DNA of 40,630 bases from a virus: positions 1 to 40,630 of the IMG/VR virus record IMGVR_UViG_3300043640_000053. One strand, given 5' to 3'. The first letter of the stretch is position 1. The number at the start of each line of letters is the position of its first letter. Positions 2,774 to 36,505 of the stretch are shown here, piece after piece. The translations under genes and the position numbers were made by a program. The notes under the pieces were generated by a model. The model made no database searches, was not told where the DNA came from, and saw nothing but the letters and a program-made list of their open reading frames with translations.

Positions 2774-3405
2774 GCGACGAACTGTATTTCGCGCATCCGT
2801 ATACCTCTAATAGTGATTTGTCAAAATTAGTTCCGCGTCCATACAGTTTTAATATTCAGGCAGCTTTTAGTTTCGGTACCCTGGTACATGCTGCGATACT
2901 TCAACCGCACCGGATCAACATAATAAAAAACACGCTGGACGGTAAGCCGGTAGAGCCTACCGCAATGGTCAGGGCGCTTGCGATGAAAGCCGCGTTTATG
3001 CTAGATCAATACTGCGCCGGTTTCCTGAAAAGCTGTAGCGTCGAAGTTGAAATGTATAACGCAAACACCGACTTCGAACACCAGGGCCGGAAATTCAGGA
3101 TTGACACGAAGCGAAAGTATGACATGTTTAATCACGTGGCTGGATATGGAGGCGACATAAAAACAACTGCGGCAATTACGCCGGAAGAATTTCGGGCGTC
3201 AGTCGAAAGTTTCGAGTATCACCGATCGCGGGTCTTTTACGCCAAAGGCTCCGGCGCCACACGCGATATAATAATAGGCATCAGTAAAGTTAACTGCGAG
3301 ATTTTTAAAGTCTTCATGCAGAAGGGAGACCGGCTATGGAAGGCGGGCGAAGATCGCGCAAATGAACTTGCCTGGTTATGGTTTAACGAACATCCGCCAT
3401 TCTAA
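2770..3405 (+). CDS. PD-(D/E)XK nuclease, RecE/exodeoxyribonuclease VIII-like
   Basis: The 211-residue product shows the landmarks of the PDDEXK-like domain found in phage exonucleases (DUF3799/RecE C-terminal type): FGTLVH near residue 35, an acidic residue in VEVEM (91-95), D112 in RIDTK, and the GDIKTT motif (128-133) supplying the catalytic D and K, followed by a helix with Tyr/His. Such enzymes resect double-stranded DNA to single strands for annealing. It is coupled by ATGA to the coiled-coil protein upstream and by a 1-base overlap to the gene downstream. The chain ends in HPPF, one of four Pro-Phe C-termini among DNA-metabolism proteins in this window. Exonuclease polarity cannot be read from sequence. 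Confidence 0.8.
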   Translation: MSDELYFAHPYTSNSDLSKLVPRPYSFNIQAAFSFGTLVHAAILQPHRINIIKNTLDGKPVEPTAMVRALAMKAAFMLDQYCAGFLKSCSVEVEMYNANTDFEHQGRKFRIDTKRKYDMFNHVAGYGGDIKTTAAITPEEFRASVESFEYHRSRVFYAKGSGATRDIIIGISKVNCEIFKVFMQKGDRLWKAGEDRANELAWLWFNEHPPF

Positions 3406-3626
3406 TGACACACGAACAAAAAAAAACGGTTCAACAATTTGTAACCAGGGTTCATAAAATGCGAAAGCTGCAATCCGAATCGCAGGCGTCTAAGCAGGCG
3501 GGCGACCATAATGTAGCGCTTACCAAATGGAACGAGTCCTATCATTACGCCCGCCTCGTGGATGAAACGCTTACCGAAGTAACAGATATTATAAGCTCAC
3601 GCGATCAGCTAATATTAGATTTATGA
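3405..3626 (+). CDS. Small helical protein, unknown
   Basis: The 73-residue product is charged and probably all-helical (two helices with a Gln/Ser/Lys-rich turn). It starts on the last base of the previous stop (TAATG) and overlaps the next gene by ATGA, so it lies inside a translationally coupled chain. No family recognised. Confidence 0.65.
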   Translation: MTHEQKKTVQQFVTRVHKMRKLQSESQASKQAGDHNVALTKWNESYHYARLVDETLTEVTDIISSRDQLILDL

Positions 3627-3946: not shown

Positions 3947-4236
3947 GTCCTACCAGGCAGCGCATAGACGAGATATTCCGGACCGCCTGCGAAATGTTCG
4001 GCGTTGACATGCGCCTGCTAGTAACAAAAAAGAATCCAGGTAGGGCCGCATATAATGCCCGGATCATTTGCATAAAGTCTTTGCGCGACTCTACGAACCT
4101 GGTGTTATCCGATATAGGCAACCTGTTCGATACTGATCATACCTGTATTTGTTATGCACTTAACCGGTACGAAGTTTATTATTCTAACGATCAGTTTTTC
4201 CGGATTGACGCAGATTTTTTTAAAACTCAAATATGA
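3943..4236 (+). CDS. Stand-alone DnaA domain IV-like DNA-binding protein
   Basis: In this 97-residue protein, residues about 50-90 match the C-terminal helix-turn-helix domain of DnaA: DIGNLFDTDHTCICYALNR (57-75) corresponds to the DnaA signature with DHSTV.HA. followed by a basic helix. In DnaA this segment reads the DnaA box. The AAA+ domain is absent, so the protein cannot act as a complete initiator. It may bind host or phage DnaA boxes, interfere with host initiation, or act as a transcription factor. It is ATGA-coupled on both sides. It is also one of the few candidate DNA-binding regulators for the repeated operators described in this window. Domain match is moderately firm; role is inferred. 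Confidence 0.65.
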   Translation: MSPTRQRIDEIFRTACEMFGVDMRLLVTKKNPGRAAYNARIICIKSLRDSTNLVLSDIGNLFDTDHTCICYALNRYEVYYSNDQFFRIDADFFKTQI

Positions 4237-9750: not shown

Positions 9751-10019
9751 GTTGTAAGCGTTGTAAGCTGTAGTAAGCATAATTATCGGACTGCTTACTA
9801 CCAGGGATATTTGGTTTTCAATCTGTTATATCTCTTTTTATTAATGTAGTAAGCGTAGTAAGCATATATCACACACACGTAACGAGGCAATGTTTTACAT
9901 GACGTGAAAATATTTTATTCATTTCCTATAAACTTCCGGAAATGCCTTACTACAGCTTACTACACTATCTGTAAAATCCACATAACGCATTGATTTAGTA
10001 TTATTTAAGTGTAGTAAGC
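9751..10019 (+). other. Iteron-like repeat cluster, candidate replication origin
   Basis: The 310-bp non-coding gap holds nine copies of a 9-bp element, consensus G(T/A)(A/T)GTAAGC, mostly GTAGTAAGC. Direct copies: 9751-9759, 9760-9768, 9770-9778, 9846-9854, 9855-9863, 10011-10019. Inverted copies: 9793-9801, 9945-9953 (one mismatch), 9955-9963. Copies are spaced 9-10 bp within groups, nearly one helical turn, as in plasmid and phage iterons bound by an initiator. The stretches between groups (about 9802-9845, 9864-9944 and 9964-10010) are A+T-rich and could act as unwinding regions. The cluster lies immediately behind the primase-helicase gene. Confidence 0.7.
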
Positions 10020-10058
10020 ACGAATATTTTCAGACACCAAAAGCAAATTGATACCAAA

Positions 10059-26210: not shown

Positions 26211-26630
26211 ATGGCATCTACACCACTTATAAACGGCGTCAATTATTCATGGGCAAACATTTCGCTTGTCCTGTTTGGGGTTGTTGTTACCGGGATTTTA
26301 AAAATCTCATACAAGCGTAAGCAGAAAAAAGAGAATAACTACGGGCATGGCGTCGAGCCTATAAGCCGTGGTTACGGTAACAAAGAATACGAGGGGTCTA
26401 TCGAAATCTATCAGGACGAATGGAAACGAATCATAGCCGCGTCTCCTAACAGAGATCCATTTGATATCGCTCCATTTGATATCCAGGTAGTGTACGGAGG
26501 CTCCCGCGTCGCGGCTGACAAAGACGTTCTGCGCGCAGTCGAATTTATGGAAGATGATTTTTCCGGCTCTCAGGGAGATTCAAAATTGGTTGTTACACTT
26601 CCGCTTATTATCGGAAGTATCGACAGATAA
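26211..26630 (+). CDS. Tail tube protein
   Basis: The 139-residue product lies directly behind the sheath. It contains GVNYSWANISLVLFG, a beta hairpin with KISYKRKQKKENNYGHGVEPISRG, and a closing LVVTLPLIIGS strand, consistent with a compact beta-barrel tube subunit. The start at 26211 is preferred to an in-frame upstream start that would lie inside the sheath gene. A strong terminator-like hairpin follows. Confidence 0.75.
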   Translation: MASTPLINGVNYSWANISLVLFGVVVTGILKISYKRKQKKENNYGHGVEPISRGYGNKEYEGSIEIYQDEWKRIIAASPNRDPFDIAPFDIQVVYGGSRVAADKDVLRAVEFMEDDFSGSQGDSKLVVTLPLIIGSIDR

Positions 26631-26701: not shown

Positions 26702-27064
26702 ATGCCCGACGAAGTTATCGCAGTAGACCTTAACGACAGCGTAGCCGCCAAGGCCGCAGAAATTTCCGCCCGCCTGGGTGTGAAAGTGCATCCCCTCATT
26801 TTCAGAGACGAAGAAACAAGCACAGACGTAATCGGTTTTATGCGTGAGCCGAATCGCGTTACGAAATTGCGTGTCCTGGATAAATCTATTACCGTTGGCG
26901 TATTCTCCGCCTCCGCTGAATTGTACGACGCGGTTATTATAAAGGAAGAAAGCGACTCGCGTCTATTTTCTGAATTATCAAGCGACGACAAGTTGGTACT
27001 TGGCGCCACGATGGCGGCTTATGATTTAATTAAAACCAGCGTTAACCAGTTTAAAAAAAAATAG
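26702..27064 (+). CDS. Tail assembly chaperone, unshifted form
   Basis: The 120-residue product, located between tube and tape measure, has an acidic N-terminal half and a helical end (ELSSDDKLVLGATMAAYDLI). This is the position of lambda gpG. It ends with the run of A and a TAG at 27062, where a -1 frameshift can add 56 residues. The short form would be the major product and bind the tape measure. Confidence 0.75.
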   Translation: MPDEVIAVDLNDSVAAKAAEISARLGVKVHPLIFRDEETSTDVIGFMREPNRVTKLRVLDKSITVGVFSASAELYDAVIIKEESDSRLFSELSSDDKLVLGATMAAYDLIKTSVNQFKKK

Positions 27065-27231
27065 ACGACAACGAAATTACTTCAGATAGCAGCGATTACA
27101 GCACCATTGGGGCCATGATCCGCTGCTATCTGCATTTAGATCCGGACACGCTCGACGACGATCGTTTCTCGCTCGAATGGGGCCGGTTAAAATACTGGCT
27201 AAAGAAAACAGGGCAATGGGAGACTAAATAA
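26702..27231 (+). CDS. Tail assembly chaperone, -1 frameshifted form (gpGT-like)
   Basis: The main frame ends TTT AAA AAA AAA TAG. Slipping back one base on A-AAA-AAA (27055-27061) places the ribosome in a frame open to the TAA at 27229-27231. That frame reads IDDNEITSDSSDY, AMIRCYLHLDPDTLDDD and RFSLEWGRLKYWLKKTG, giving a 176-residue fusion. The second frame has no start of its own near the junction and ends 3 nt before the tape measure start, so it makes sense only as an extension. In lambda the shifted product recruits tube subunits to the tape measure. A 10-bp hairpin lies downstream. Confidence 0.75.
27050..27130 (+). promoter_or_regulatory. Programmed -1 frameshift signal
   Basis: The slippery run TTTAAAAAAAAA (27050-27061) is followed at once by TAG in the zero frame. 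Downstream lies a perfect 10-bp stem, GATAGCAGCG (27085-27094) with CGCTGCTATC (27121-27130), and a 26-nt loop. The spacer of 23 nt is longer than the usual 5-9 nt, so the hairpin may act only together with other structure, or the A-run may suffice. Confidence 0.7.
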
Positions 27232-27234
27232 ATC

Positions 27235-28758
27235 ATGGTAGGGAAAGAAGTCAAATATACGCTATCACTGCGCGACTTGTTTACGGGCAAGATTCAAAAC
27301 GCGAAACACGCTACCGAAGCGCTTGGCGGCACTATGCGTAGTATGTCTCATTTGGCGGGCGGGCTGCTGGCCGGAATCGGTGCAGGGTTTGCTGGTATGG
27401 AGATCGTGGAGTTTGTAAAGAAGTCTGAAGAAGAATTTCACAGCCTGGAACAAGCGACCGCACAGGTCCGGGCCGGCCTGGAAAGCACTCGTGGCGCTGC
27501 TGGTGTAACATTCGAAGAACTGGAACACGGCGCTAAAGAAGCTGCGGAACAGTTTAACTATACGCAGTCTCAGGTAGCCGATATGCAGGCGCAGCTCTTA
27601 ACGTTTCCTTCCGTTACGGAAAGGACGTTCGGAGACGCATCGCAGTCGATTATAGACATGTCTACCAGGCTGCATCATAGCTTAAGCGAAACCGCCATAA
27701 TGGTCGGCAAGGCTCTGCAAGATCCGGCCAGAGGTATTACAGCCTTGCGCCGCGTTGGTGTGAATTTCAACAACACGCAAACTGATATAATAAAGAACCT
27801 GGTAGCTACCGGCCACGCCGCACAGGCGCAGAAAATGATCCTTACCGAACTGTCTTCGGAGTTTGGTGGTTCAGCTAAGGCCGCAGCCGACGCGGATCCA
27901 TTGTTTAGGTATAAAAAGATCATGGAAGACCTGCGGCTGACCGTAGGTGAAGCGGCTATGAAACTACAGGTGGCTTTGGCTCCGGCGCTGATCAAAATCG
28001 CTACAGCCTTTAAAAATACTATACAATGGATGCAGGAACATAAAACCCTGCTGGAATTCATAGGCGCAATCGTTGCCGGGGCGCTGATCGCTTACGGGTC
28101 ATATCTGGCAATCGTTGAATCTATTGCGCTTGTAACAAAAATTTGGGCTGGTGTACAGTGGCTTTTAAACGCAGCCATGACCGCCAATCCCATCGGCATC
28201 ATGATCGTAGCGATAGGCGCCGCAGTGGGTGCAATCATTTTCGCGTACAAGCATTTTGCAAAATTCCGTGCCGTCCTTTGGGGTGTATGGGAAACGGTAA
28301 AGGAATTCGCTCGTATCGTGGCTGACGTATTCTTGGGACTCGGAAAAATAATTCAGGGCGTAATCACGCTCAACCCGTCCAAGGTTGTCGAAGGCTATAA
28401 GCAGACGGCGGGCGCCATCGCCGACGCCGGTACTCGTTTGGGTAGCGCGTTTCAAAAAGGGTTTAACGACGGCATGGCCGACTTTGCAAAAGACGAAGCC
28501 GCAGAAAAAACCGCGTCACCGAAAAGCCTTATTAAAAAAGGAGCGACCGGATTACCAGGCGAAGCCGGAAAGGGAGCTACCGCAAAAGCGACTGGAAATA
28601 AGTCAACGGTTATTAATATCAAGATTGACAGCCTTATAAAATCTCAGACGGTATCTGTCAAGAATGTAACAGAAGGAAGAAATCAGATAAAGGAGTTGAT
28701 GACTCAGGCTTTATTGGGTGCAGTAAATGATTCACAAGTAATCGCAGGTCAACAATGA
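27235..28758 (+). CDS. Tail tape measure protein
   Basis: The 507-residue product begins VKYTLSLRDLFTGKIQNAKHA, a typical tape-measure start. It then has long helical stretches, a TP901-like region (MSTRLHHSLSETAIMVGKAL), and hydrophobic segments at about 266-300 and 310-340 that could insert in the host membrane. A Gly/Ala/Lys-rich C-terminal region follows. Tape length sets tail length; at about 0.15 nm per residue, 507 residues would give roughly 75 nm, a short contractile tail. It starts 3 nt after the chaperone extension and overlaps the next gene by ATGA. Confidence 0.85.
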   Translation: MVGKEVKYTLSLRDLFTGKIQNAKHATEALGGTMRSMSHLAGGLLAGIGAGFAGMEIVEFVKKSEEEFHSLEQATAQVRAGLESTRGAAGVTFEELEHGAKEAAEQFNYTQSQVADMQAQLLTFPSVTERTFGDASQSIIDMSTRLHHSLSETAIMVGKALQDPARGITALRRVGVNFNNTQTDIIKNLVATGHAAQAQKMILTELSSEFGGSAKAAADADPLFRYKKIMEDLRLTVGEAAMKLQVALAPALIKIATAFKNTIQWMQEHKTLLEFIGAIVAGALIAYGSYLAIVESIALVTKIWAGVQWLLNAAMTANPIGIMIVAIGAAVGAIIFAYKHFAKFRAVLWGVWETVKEFARIVADVFLGLGKIIQGVITLNPSKVVEGYKQTAGAIADAGTRLGSAFQKGFNDGMADFAKDEAAEKTASPKSLIKKGATGLPGEAGKGATAKATGNKSTVINIKIDSLIKSQTVSVKNVTEGRNQIKELMTQALLGAVNDSQVIAGQQ

Positions 28759-33049: not shown

Positions 33050-33366
33050 CGATTAATACAGATGGGGCCGCGAAAGTCCCGATTATAGTACGGTCCGGAA
33101 ACACGGTCGGTATAACCGCGACTTTTACGGAAGGTGAATCTCCTAAAGATTTAACCGGATGTAAGTTTTTTCTATACGTTACTCAGGGCGCAAGCACCGT
33201 GGATATGGCGCCCGATATCACATTGGGCGGATCTGACAATAATATCCTTACCATCAAGTCGCTTATCAGGCAGCGGCCCGGCGCATACACATACGAATTA
33301 AAAATTACAAACCCCGCAGACGCGACGGCTATCACTTATTTATACGGGCCTTTTACTGTTAATTAA
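33046..33366 (+). CDS. Small beta protein, fibre adaptor-like (BppU N-terminus-like)
   Basis: The 106-residue product has a pattern like the N-terminal immunoglobulin-like domain of Bpp[32 protein letters not shown] and [11 protein letters not shown], then a final strand. In siphophages this domain joins fibres to the baseplate. It overlaps the previous gene by ATGA and shares a base with the next start (TAATG), which is the collagen-like fibre. Confidence 0.6.
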
Positions 33367-34883
33367 TGACTGTAGACCTTACATACGAAAGCATTACAAA
33401 CAGCGTGACGGTAGACAATACCGGCGCGAATGTAGACCTGAAGGTTTCCGTCACCCCTATTGAGGTAACCGCAGAAATAGGAACGGGTGCGCCTGGTCCG
33501 CAGGGCGATGCGGGTCCAGCGGGTGCGGCGGGTTCTATTGGCCCCGCAGGGCCGCAGGGAGTGCAGGGAATGCAAGGCGCAGCCGGACAAGCCGGAGAAC
33601 AGGGCATCCAGGGCGTACAGGGTGTCCAGGGTATTACCGGTCCGGCCGGCGCTGGCATCGCCGCAGGTGGTGCTGTTGGCGCATTCTTGGTAAAGAATAG
33701 TCTAACGGATTATGACACTTCATGGAAAGACTTGTTTGGTAGTGCAAATACGTGGACGGGTACTATTTTATTTACTAATAATGTTACAATTAGAAATTCG
33801 ACTACTCCAATTGCTCTAGTTGTTGGGTCTACAACTGATAATGGAGATAAGAAATTAACAGTAACAAGTACAGGTAGCGATCAAGTTACAGCAATTGGAA
33901 CTGGTACAGGAAGATCAGGATTCTATGCACAATGCACTAATACTGCTGGACAGACTACTAATTACATGGAGAATAACCGTGGCAGCTTTGCGTCTTACGG
34001 TGGGCAGATGGTTGGTGGATCAACAAATGTGAGTACATTATTTGGACTTACACGTCAGGATAAATATTTTATCTTTGCTGATGGAGCAAGTAATTTGGGA
34101 ATGGCTATTGGAACTTTAGCAGTTCAACCATTGATTTTTGGTTCATCCAATTTTGAAAGGATGCGCTTAACCGGAGCAGGTAATTTATTAATAAATACGT
34201 TAACTGACAGCGGATATAAATTACAGATCGAAATAGATAGTCTTGGTATTACGCCAACTAATGGCATCTACGCATCAAATCTTACTCCTGCTACTGCTGT
34301 TTTAAATCAGTATTCACCTGCGATTATACTTGAGGGTCAAGGATGGAAAACTACTGCTACGGCTGGTTCACAATCTGCTAAGATTAGACAGTTCGTTGGA
34401 GTGCTAACGGGAACAGCTTCTCCTCTTCCATTTTTAAGCTATGAGTATAGTACAAATAATGGCGCGTATGCTTCTTTGTTTGGTATAGGATTAGGATTAT
34501 CTCCACATCTAGGAGTTTCCGCTTTAGGTTTTAATATCAATATGAGTGGGGGTTGTGAAATTACCGCACCTGTGTTATATTTGAATTCTTCAAGTTCAGG
34601 TGTTCATATCCAATGTTTGGCATCTAATGTCACTAATTTGCCTCAAACGGTAATTAATCTTTCTTCAACAAATGGAACTGTTAACGTAGGAACTACAACT
34701 TCTATTGCAAGTGCAGTGTTAAATGTGGTTGCCACAACCAAGGGTGCAGCACTACCAAGAATGACCACGACTCAAAAGAATGCAATAGCTACTCCTATTG
34801 AGGGATTGGAAGTATATGATCTGACCTTGCATAAGAAATGCGTCTACACCGGTAGCGCGTGGGAAACAATCACATCGCTTTAA
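33366..34883 (+). CDS. Tail fibre with collagen-like repeats
   Basis: In the 505-residue product, residues 1-40 form a short attachment domain; 41-97 are Gly-x-y collagen-like triplets ([19 protein letters not shown]); a long beta-rich shaft and head follow; the last 60 residues ([34 protein letters not shown]) match a C-terminal module common in Bacteroidetes phage and host surface proteins. It probably binds the host receptor as a trimer. From about 33.7 to 34.8 kb the DNA is visibly richer in A+T and uses A/T-ending codons (ACT, GGA, TTA) more than the neighbours, a sign of acquired receptor-binding sequence. Confidence 0.75.
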
Positions 34884-35068: not shown

Positions 35069-36505
35069 ATGAAGAAAATCCTCATTTTCCTTTTATCGTT
35101 AGTCAGTCTTTTTGCTTCGGCAACGCCCGATACCGTAAGGCTGCAAGCTGGTCAATACTCCGGAATATTTATTCCGAAGTCTAATACCGTTTATACTAAC
35201 GTCGGCGGTCAGGTTGTTTTTACCTCCCATCCAAGCGTAGGCGGAACTAACGGAGTGCAGTTTATCGGCGCTACGTCGAATGGATTTAAGTATATAGGAA
35301 ACGAATTTTCAGTCTTCGGATCTGGCAATGGCGATATACAGAACATGACCGTTAAGGGTTTTGATTTTGGCAGCACTGCGACTGTTGTTTTTGACGCCTC
35401 TACTAAAATTTACACCGCTCCGGGAAAACTACTCACCTACGACGGAACGGTTCACATGGAGGTGTTTCATAATCTGGTCGTTGACGGTTTTACTGTTTCT
35501 GGTAAAACACAGTTATTCCAGGGAAGTTACGATTCCAGCCAGACGCTGCGAATGATCAATGACAGCGTGACCTTCCTACACGGCACTTTTATTAATGACG
35601 GAACAGGTGAAAACATAAAGGTATCCGGAAATTCTATTTACAACCTGGTCGCCGACTATTGGACCGTCACCGGCCCTACGATCAACATCCACGATTGCGG
35701 CATATTCTTTTTCAACGGGAACGGAAAGATTTCGCACATATACAGAAATGGCGGTTGGGGTTACTTAGCAAGGATCATTAATATATTTTTAAAGAAGGGC
35801 GGCTATTCGTCAATTACTTATTGTGTAGATGTAAACAGCACTCATTACGGATCAGTGGACGGCAGAGTAACGCCGTACTTTATCAAAAGTTACAATCCGA
35901 AGATTCCACTTTACGGAGGGGATTTTATTTGCGACCATAACACGATCGGCGACAAGCTCGACGGATCGGACGATACCGGCAAAGGAGGTAACGCTTACGT
36001 TTCTAACGGCTACATAGTCGGAGGCATGACCGATAGCGTGGGAACAGTTTTTGCATTTCGGATTACCAATTGCGTTGCATGGAATGCGTCGCCCAACAGC
36101 GGTCAAGCGAATGGTAGCAGCCTTTTAAAAAACAACGCTCCGAAGGGAACGGTTAATCTGGTTATGAATAATAACATCGACTTGCCGCCCGGTGTGTTGC
36201 TGCCTGCCGGATACTTTATTGACAAGATCAACTTTATACCAGCACCAGGATCGCCGCTTATTGGAAAAGCCTCGGACGGAACTGATATCGGCGCAATTCA
36301 AACCGCAGGCGTAACCGTAACACCTCCGCCTATTGTTGTTTACGGAACCAAAGGTGACAAGGGAGATAAGGGCGATACTGGACCATCAGGACCGATAGGA
36401 CCACAGGGATTGCCTGGTATACCTGGTGCGACCGGACCCGCAGGACCTAAAATTAAAAGCATTTCAATCACTTACGCGGACGGCACTACGTCAATTCTTC
36501 AATAA
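35069..36505 (+). CDS. Secreted beta-helix-like protein with C-terminal collagen-like repeat
   Basis: The 478-residue product has an N-terminal signal peptide (MKKILIFLLSLVSLFASA, cleavage likely near residue 18). About 400 residues of short strand repeats rich in Gly, Asn and Asp follow, and read like a right-handed parallel beta-helix with pectate-lyase-like phrases (GGNAYVSNGYIVGG, FRITNCVAWNASPN). Collagen-like triplets lie at about 426-460 (GDKGDKGDTGPSGPIGPQG), then an 18-residue end. Beta-helix phage proteins often bind or cut surface polysaccharides. The signal peptide is odd for a virion part and suggests export to the periplasm or surface. No catalytic residues can be assigned. Confidence 0.6.
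   Translation: MKKILIFLLSLVSLFASATPDTVRLQAGQYSGIFIPKSNTVYTNVGGQVVFTSHPSVGGTNGVQFIGATSNGFKYIGNEFSVFGSGNGDIQNMTVKGFDFGSTATVVFDASTKIYTAPGKLLTYDGTVHMEVFHNLVVDGFTVSGKTQLFQGSYDSSQTLRMINDSVTFLHGTFINDGTGENIKVSGNSIYNLVADYWTVTGPTINIHDCGIFFFNGNGKISHIYRNGGWGYLARIINIFLKKGGYSSITYCVDVNSTHYGSVDGRVTPYFIKSYNPKIPLYGGDFICDHNTIGDKLDGSDDTGKGGNAYVSNGYIVGGMTDSVGTVFAFRITNCVAWNASPNSGQANGSSLLKNNAPKGTVNLVMNNNIDLPPGVLLPAGYFIDKINFIPAPGSPLIGKASDGTDIGAIQTAGVTVTPPPIVVYGTKGDKGDKGDTGPSGPIGPQGLPGIPGATGPAGPKIKSISITYADGTTSILQ

Follow-up and report, generated by a model that had tools for sequence, protein, structure and literature searches.

A candidate recoded tail chaperone gene with a nine-A slip site and a distant RNA hairpin in Bacteroidota phages related to the Winoviridae

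The tail assembly chaperones of lambda (gpG/gpGT) and HK97 are encoded by a small gene lying between those for the tail tube and the tape measure protein (PMC5009743), and in lambda a −1 shift near the end of this gene gives a longer fusion, the second frame having no start of its own. Slip sites rich in A's are known from dnaX, which in E. coli carries the tandem lysine-codon site A_AAA_AAG and in Thermus a run of nine A's (A9) (Atkins et al., PMC5009743). The slippage in Thermus thermophilus dnaX shortens the product, and a second lysine tRNA, for which tight pairing with AAG is expected, may explain why Thermus uses polymerase slippage on A9 in this gene (PMC5009743). In many bacteria, selection against runs of A or T becomes apparent at a length of nine (Baranov et al., PMC1088944). 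Structures that stimulate −1 frameshifting usually follow the slip site after a spacer of 5–9 nt, and the stem-loop of the protein-directed −1 frameshift of cardioviruses lies beyond this range, at 13–14 nt (PMC6735917).

The DNA analysed here is a 40.6-kb stretch from a virus (IMG/VR record IMGVR_UViG_3300043640_000053, positions 1 to 40,630; hereafter the window), in which a small gene is placed between tube and tape measure genes as in lambda, with a predicted −1 shift near its end that would give a longer fusion and a second frame that lacks its own start (Table 1). There is no detectable sequence homology to gpG/gpGT, however, and here the phage is a contractile-tailed one of Bacteroidota, the nine-A site has the stop codon directly after it, and a conserved hairpin lies at some distance downstream. 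Compared with E. coli dnaX, whose A_AAA_AAG is also the site of a sister clade of this chaperone family, the window has A_AAA_AAA within A9 and a structure 21 nt away, and the frameshift product would be the longer one. The nine-A run is shared with Thermus, as is the presence of two lysine tRNAs (PMC5009743) in the hosts of most nine-A prophages tested, but putative slippage would here lengthen the product rather than shorten it. The cardiovirus signal offers an analogy only: its stem-loop lies beyond the usual spacing, as does the hairpin here, whereas the window's family has a longer spacer of more variable length and no known protein factor. A recoded tail chaperone is of a known kind; what is new is a slip site of nine A's, a conserved hairpin far downstream and a change of slip-site type within a single family.

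Table 1. Features of the tail chaperone locus and its two neighbours in the window.
Feature	Coordinates	Strand	Basis and remarks
Tail tube protein gene	26211–26630	+	phrog_4579 tail protein, E 1e-19; 66–70% identity to loci L003 and L004
Zero frame, candidate tail assembly chaperone (G-like, 120 aa)	26702–27064	+	ATG frame, 120 codons
A9 slip site	27053–27061	+	in-phase heptamer A_AAA_AAA at 27055–27061
Zero-frame stop codon TAG, directly 3' of A9	27062–27064	+	sequence
−1 frame extension (T-like), 56 codons plus TAA at 27229–27231	27061–27231	+	conserved; dN/dS 0.09; two-helix model
RNA hairpin, perfect 12-bp stem (27083–27094 with 27121–27132) plus inner pairs	27083–27132	+	fold, codon-null z, covariation
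Tape measure protein gene (507 aa)	27235–28758	+	phrog_27166, E 1.4e-28; Pfam TMP_2

An earlier note on this DNA had read the end of the 120-codon frame as TTT AAA AAA AAA TAG and had described a −1 frame of 56 codons, and the sequence bears out both readings, with 3 nt separating the end of the extension from the tape measure ATG. A −1 shift at A9 would give a G-T fusion of 176 aa with the junction NQFKKK-IDDNE. The gene is preceded by those for a DUF2586-type sheath and the tube protein and followed by those for the tape measure, a DUF6046 baseplate protein and a baseplate hub, while terminase, a Mu-type portal and a Clp protease are encoded further upstream. Two large proteins with collagen-like repeats (33366–34883 and 35069–36505, the second just under the Pfam cut-off) are likely tail fibre components. 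The phage is a contractile-tailed Bacteroidota phage with kinship to Winoviridae. Of the sheath, tube and Clp-type protease gene set considered for membership of that family, the sheath protein is 39–41% identical to those of Flavobacterium members and a Clp protease is present, as is a Mu-type portal; the tree places the window's clade on a branch separate from the cultured members. Related prophages are found in genomes labelled Parafilimonas, Sphingobacteriales and Mucilaginibacter.

Relatives were gathered using first the G protein and afterwards the conserved tube protein as bait; they comprise viral contigs, prophages and cultured phages. A tblastn search of the phage collection with the window's G protein gave no match, so relatives there were reached via the tube protein, whose gene is a conserved neighbour of the chaperone gene. 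The gene after each tube gene, and its end, were located by script, which resulted in 94 distinct slip-site loci; loci on the minus strand were read separately and left out of the 94-locus statistics. The gene order is the same in relatives, and the zero-frame protein of the window has relatives at 43–54% identity. Tube relatives in some Bacteroidota genomes are not all linked to a recoded gene: in five loci (L157, L158, L159, L160 and L161) the gene after the tube homologue is conserved but consists of a single ORF that lacks a long −1 extension. A further prophage clade (L173, L179, L181, L183, L185–L190, L193, L195 and L196, also L176 and L177) has the same gene, ending in a conserved CTG GTA AAC (or AAG) TTA followed by TAG or TAA, with a −1 frame that is open for 51–63 codons and no canonical slippery heptamer; it possibly uses a different shift signal.

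A −1 frame open for 56 codons is encountered at about 4% of positions within the window's genes, so that its length alone is weak evidence, and the reality of the frame is settled by its conservation in relatives. Absence of such conservation had been named in the earlier note, together with absence of a fusion peptide, as what would overturn the shift; the second frame is kept in all 94 slip-site loci, with a median dN/dS of 0.09 over 68 pairs (which are not independent of each other), indicating strong purifying selection. In each locus the zero frame reaches an in-phase A_AAA_AAN near its stop and the −1 frame runs on to the tape measure start, usually over 53–61 codons, and the +1 frame shuts after 32 codons or fewer. 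Differences in the extension are distributed 744/490/1957 over the three codon positions, and the next long frame begins −13 to +12 nt from the end of the extension in most loci. The extension is modelled with confidence as a two-helix domain (pLDDT 90); two rows from annotated records were left out when its alignment was folded. Cultured Winoviridae also carry it: in the phages pippi8-1, FPSV-S1 and Peternella_1 (L111, L112 and L113) it either has no annotation or is listed as a hypothetical ORF of its own, and in pippi8-1 it spans 4060–4188.

The position of the gene and the conserved −1 frame support the earlier proposal of a recoded chaperone of the lambda G/GT type between tube and tape measure, and −1 recoding is, as far as sequence comparison can carry it, well supported. 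The −1 extension is conserved, lacks a start of its own and closes beside the tape measure gene. The chaperone role is suggested mainly by position and recoding architecture, together with a weak fold match to HK97, and not by sequence homology to lambda G. Searches of Pfam, PHROGs and Rfam found no family for the window's chaperone or its extension; seven relatives match phrog_19076, of unknown function, and four match DUF5634 weakly. The zero-frame protein gave a confident model (pLDDT 86, from 66 sequences), for which the best match among 350,542 solved chains was the HK97 tail assembly chaperone 2ob9 (E 0.11, TM about 0.4). This match is not significant by itself and is taken as a hint only. 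Significant matches among predicted viral proteins are uncharacterised, and several tail assembly chaperones appear lower in that list.

The in-phase A_AAA_AAN heptamer is present in all 94 slip-site loci, and the A_AAA_AAA of the window has the X_XXY_YYZ form of bacterial −1 signals. The A9 in which it lies also has the sequence properties of a programmed transcriptional slippage site, a homopolymer of about nine or more A's or T's kept by selection. Run length is nine in 69 loci, ten in eight, eight in eight and six in nine. In a tree made without the slip-site columns, cultured Winoviridae and several prophages, with A_AAA_AAG and in most cases six A's, form a clade that splits from the window's clade, where runs of nine or ten A's are found in 77 of 85 loci. 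The other coding DNA of the clade's loci (378 kb) contains two runs of at least nine A's; there, Lys-Lys-Lys is coded AAA AAA AAA in just 2 of 23 cases and AAG makes up 28% of lysine codons. The last position of the site is not A in 21 loci, 18 of which have an A directly before the run, mostly preserving nine. The association has a naive p of 4e-10 and, once kinship is removed, comes to 4 pairs against 0 (p 0.125), so compensation that keeps the run at nine is suggestive only. Four changes on the tree account for the eight loci of the clade whose runs are shorter than nine; in each of these loci the ribosome could still use the heptamer, and the −1 frame is retained. L081 is the sole member of the window's clade with just six A's. 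In BS-TP1, a more distant relative, A_AAT_TTA is found within the overlap. The window has one other A9 run, at 3418–3426, a few codons into an ORF (3405–3626). Of 84 slip sites, 71 are followed by TAG, a stop codon that ends only 3 of 33 long window genes; this excess may reflect coding for Ile-Asp/Glu in the −1 frame or slower termination.

The 10-bp inverted repeat noted earlier downstream of the slip site (27085–27094 with 27121–27130) is real, although it proved to be part of a 12-bp stem, which encloses a 26-nt loop. The stem is also conserved, but it begins 21 nt after the heptamer and is not a classical stimulator spaced at 5–9 nt. The 81 nt downstream fold at −27.3 kcal/mol (z −5.5), with none of 200 shuffles equally stable, and against a null of synonymous codons in the −1 frame the window has z −3.8, again with 0 of 200 as stable. 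Across the 94 loci, the 80 nt after the slip site have a mean z of −2.79 versus −0.35 in tape measure controls (p 6e-20, the sequences not being independent), and under the synonymous-codon null −2.3 versus −0.32. The hairpin is thus stronger than synonymous codon choice predicts and is a real RNA element. It is present in most lineages, the effect being uneven across loci; a subclade with L007, L009, L020 and L004 has no hairpin and retains A9 and the −1 frame. In an alignment of 25 rows, 75% of the cells of the 12-bp stem are paired, compared with 37–58% when the stem is slid, 7 of its 12 pairs are altered on both sides in some row, and compensatory cells number 29 against 13 in shuffles. 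RNAalifold returned no consensus for these 25 rows, and for this reason explicit pair counts and the synonymous-codon null were used instead. No Rfam family was found for the hairpin. A closing helix or pseudoknot linking it to the slip site was clear in 125-nt folds only in L081, where extra pairs shorten the gap between heptamer and structure to 6 nt, the only locus with pairing that close; elsewhere such links were variable. The window has one other perfect 12-bp inverted repeat with a loop of up to 60 nt, at 9955–10019 (41-nt loop). This second pair is located in a repeat-rich non-coding stretch (9752–10021) after a primase/helicase-like gene. Seven TAGTAAGC-type repeats, found there in both orientations, are reminiscent of iterons or operator sites.

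Both mechanisms named in the earlier note, −1 ribosomal frameshifting and transcriptional slippage on A9, are the right two candidates. We consider it likely that the region from the ATG of the zero frame to the end of the extension is a single recoded gene with −1 ribosomal frameshifting at its core, polymerase slippage added to it or partly replacing it, and the hairpin modulating the outcome. The analysis shows the sequence itself, its conservation, selection on the second frame and constraint at the RNA level; for products, slippage level, efficiency and function we infer the following course. Most translation would stop at the TAG, giving the 120-aa G protein, and a minority would shift to the −1 frame at A9 and give the G-T fusion. 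If lambda is a guide, the part of G would be to bind the tape measure protein and that of T to recruit the tube protein. The conserved core would be −1 slippage of the ribosome on the in-phase A_AAA_AAA beside the stop codon. In the window's clade, slippage of RNA polymerase on A9 would produce A10 in some transcripts, probably adding to or partly replacing the ribosomal route, and the hairpin most likely modulates the shift step across its 21-nt spacer.

Every A9 contains an in-phase A_AAA_AAA, and the heptamer alone is therefore no proof that the ribosome is the agent. The fusion could instead arise mainly from RNA-polymerase slippage on A9, through transcripts with ten or seven A's, the heptamer being incidental, which we regard as plausible though somewhat short of probable. 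Keeping nine A's is more than the heptamer requires and counts against a purely ribosomal reading, as do the scarcity of such runs and of AAA AAA AAA in other coding DNA of these loci, the A that usually stands ahead of the run where the last A is lost, and the subclade that retains A9 without a hairpin; nine A's is moreover a known slippage length (PMC1088944), used by Thermus dnaX. Yet the run may be explained by a protein constraint on Lys-Lys-Lys, the pattern of run-keeping is reduced to four pairs by removal of kinship, and four lineages of the clade with shorter runs keep the heptamer and the −1 frame, as the sister clade does with six A's. Moreover, a polymerase positioned on the run has yet to transcribe the hairpin, which therefore cannot assist polymerase slippage, and any action of the hairpin on the shift would be on the ribosome. 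Ribosomal slippage is held as the core because the heptamer is universal, relatives with short runs exist and the sister clade has a classic site. Ribosomal frameshifting is probably the older route; polymerase slippage at A9 is a probable contributor in the window's clade, and for its being the larger one there the chances are nearly even.

It is also conceivable, at somewhat less than an even chance, that the hairpin is unrelated to the shift and is an element of mRNA processing, stability or spacing that lies in the extension by chance. The spacer from heptamer to hairpin is long and variable, about 16–24 nt in most loci and 30–50 nt in some, and the subclade without a hairpin keeps A9 and the −1 frame. 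Against this, the hairpin is positioned just after the slip site in most lineages, it is present in 8 of 8 clade loci with fewer than nine A's (an association with run length that is weak given relatedness), and the structure in the six-A L081 extends almost to the heptamer. It is barely credible that there is no programmed recoding and that the region instead holds two independent genes, or a single gene broken up by a sequencing error in the homopolymer. Homopolymers are error-prone and cultured relatives are annotated with separate or missing ORFs, but independent assemblies show the same layout at 94 distinct loci, as do cultured phages whose slip sites differ, and sequencing error is rejected. 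A separate start for the second ORF is likewise rejected, since the −1 frame has no conserved internal start across the 94 loci, an ATG within its first 20 codons occurring in only 29.

The preferred reading of a ribosomal core with polymerase slippage added in the window's clade can be set beside the lysine tRNAs of the hosts. The genomes of 14 prophage hosts were searched for tRNA-Lys(CUU) by pattern search, BLAST and ARAGORN. Of the six hosts with nine-A prophages, five yielded the gene (G001, G002, G004, G005 and G096) and one did not (G131); of the eight whose prophages have A_AAA_AAG, one did (G347) and seven did not (G814, G821, G750, G093, G179, G317 and G711). These absences are provisional, as the genomes may be incomplete and one pattern search missed a CUU gene in G411 that another search found. 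In this small test, with host relatedness uncorrected, the association has a Fisher p of 0.026, so that the tracking of slip-site type with host tRNA-Lys(CUU) is a lead, not a result. The pattern also cuts both ways, as hosts with the CUU tRNA might need A_AAA_AAA for ribosomal slippage. We think it unlikely that the route to the fusion changed with the host lysine tRNAs, from ribosomal slippage on A_AAA_AAG where only UUU is present to polymerase slippage, or both, on nine A's where UUU and CUU are present, with the distal hairpin as a new regulator of the ratio.

What began as a suspected frameshift in an unannotated phage gene is now a recoded gene family with good support, spanning phages and prophages of Bacteroidota; in the cultured Winoviridae that were examined, the annotation either omits its second half or lists it as a separate ORF. 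Within this family one gene carries, at one place, a classic ribosomal site (six A's and a G) in some members and a nine-A site typical of polymerase slippage in others, and the conserved hairpin at its unusual distance is a further element that can be tested. The family also permits a direct test of the suggestion made for dnaX (PMC5009743) that the repertoire of lysine tRNAs sets the level at which slippage takes place.
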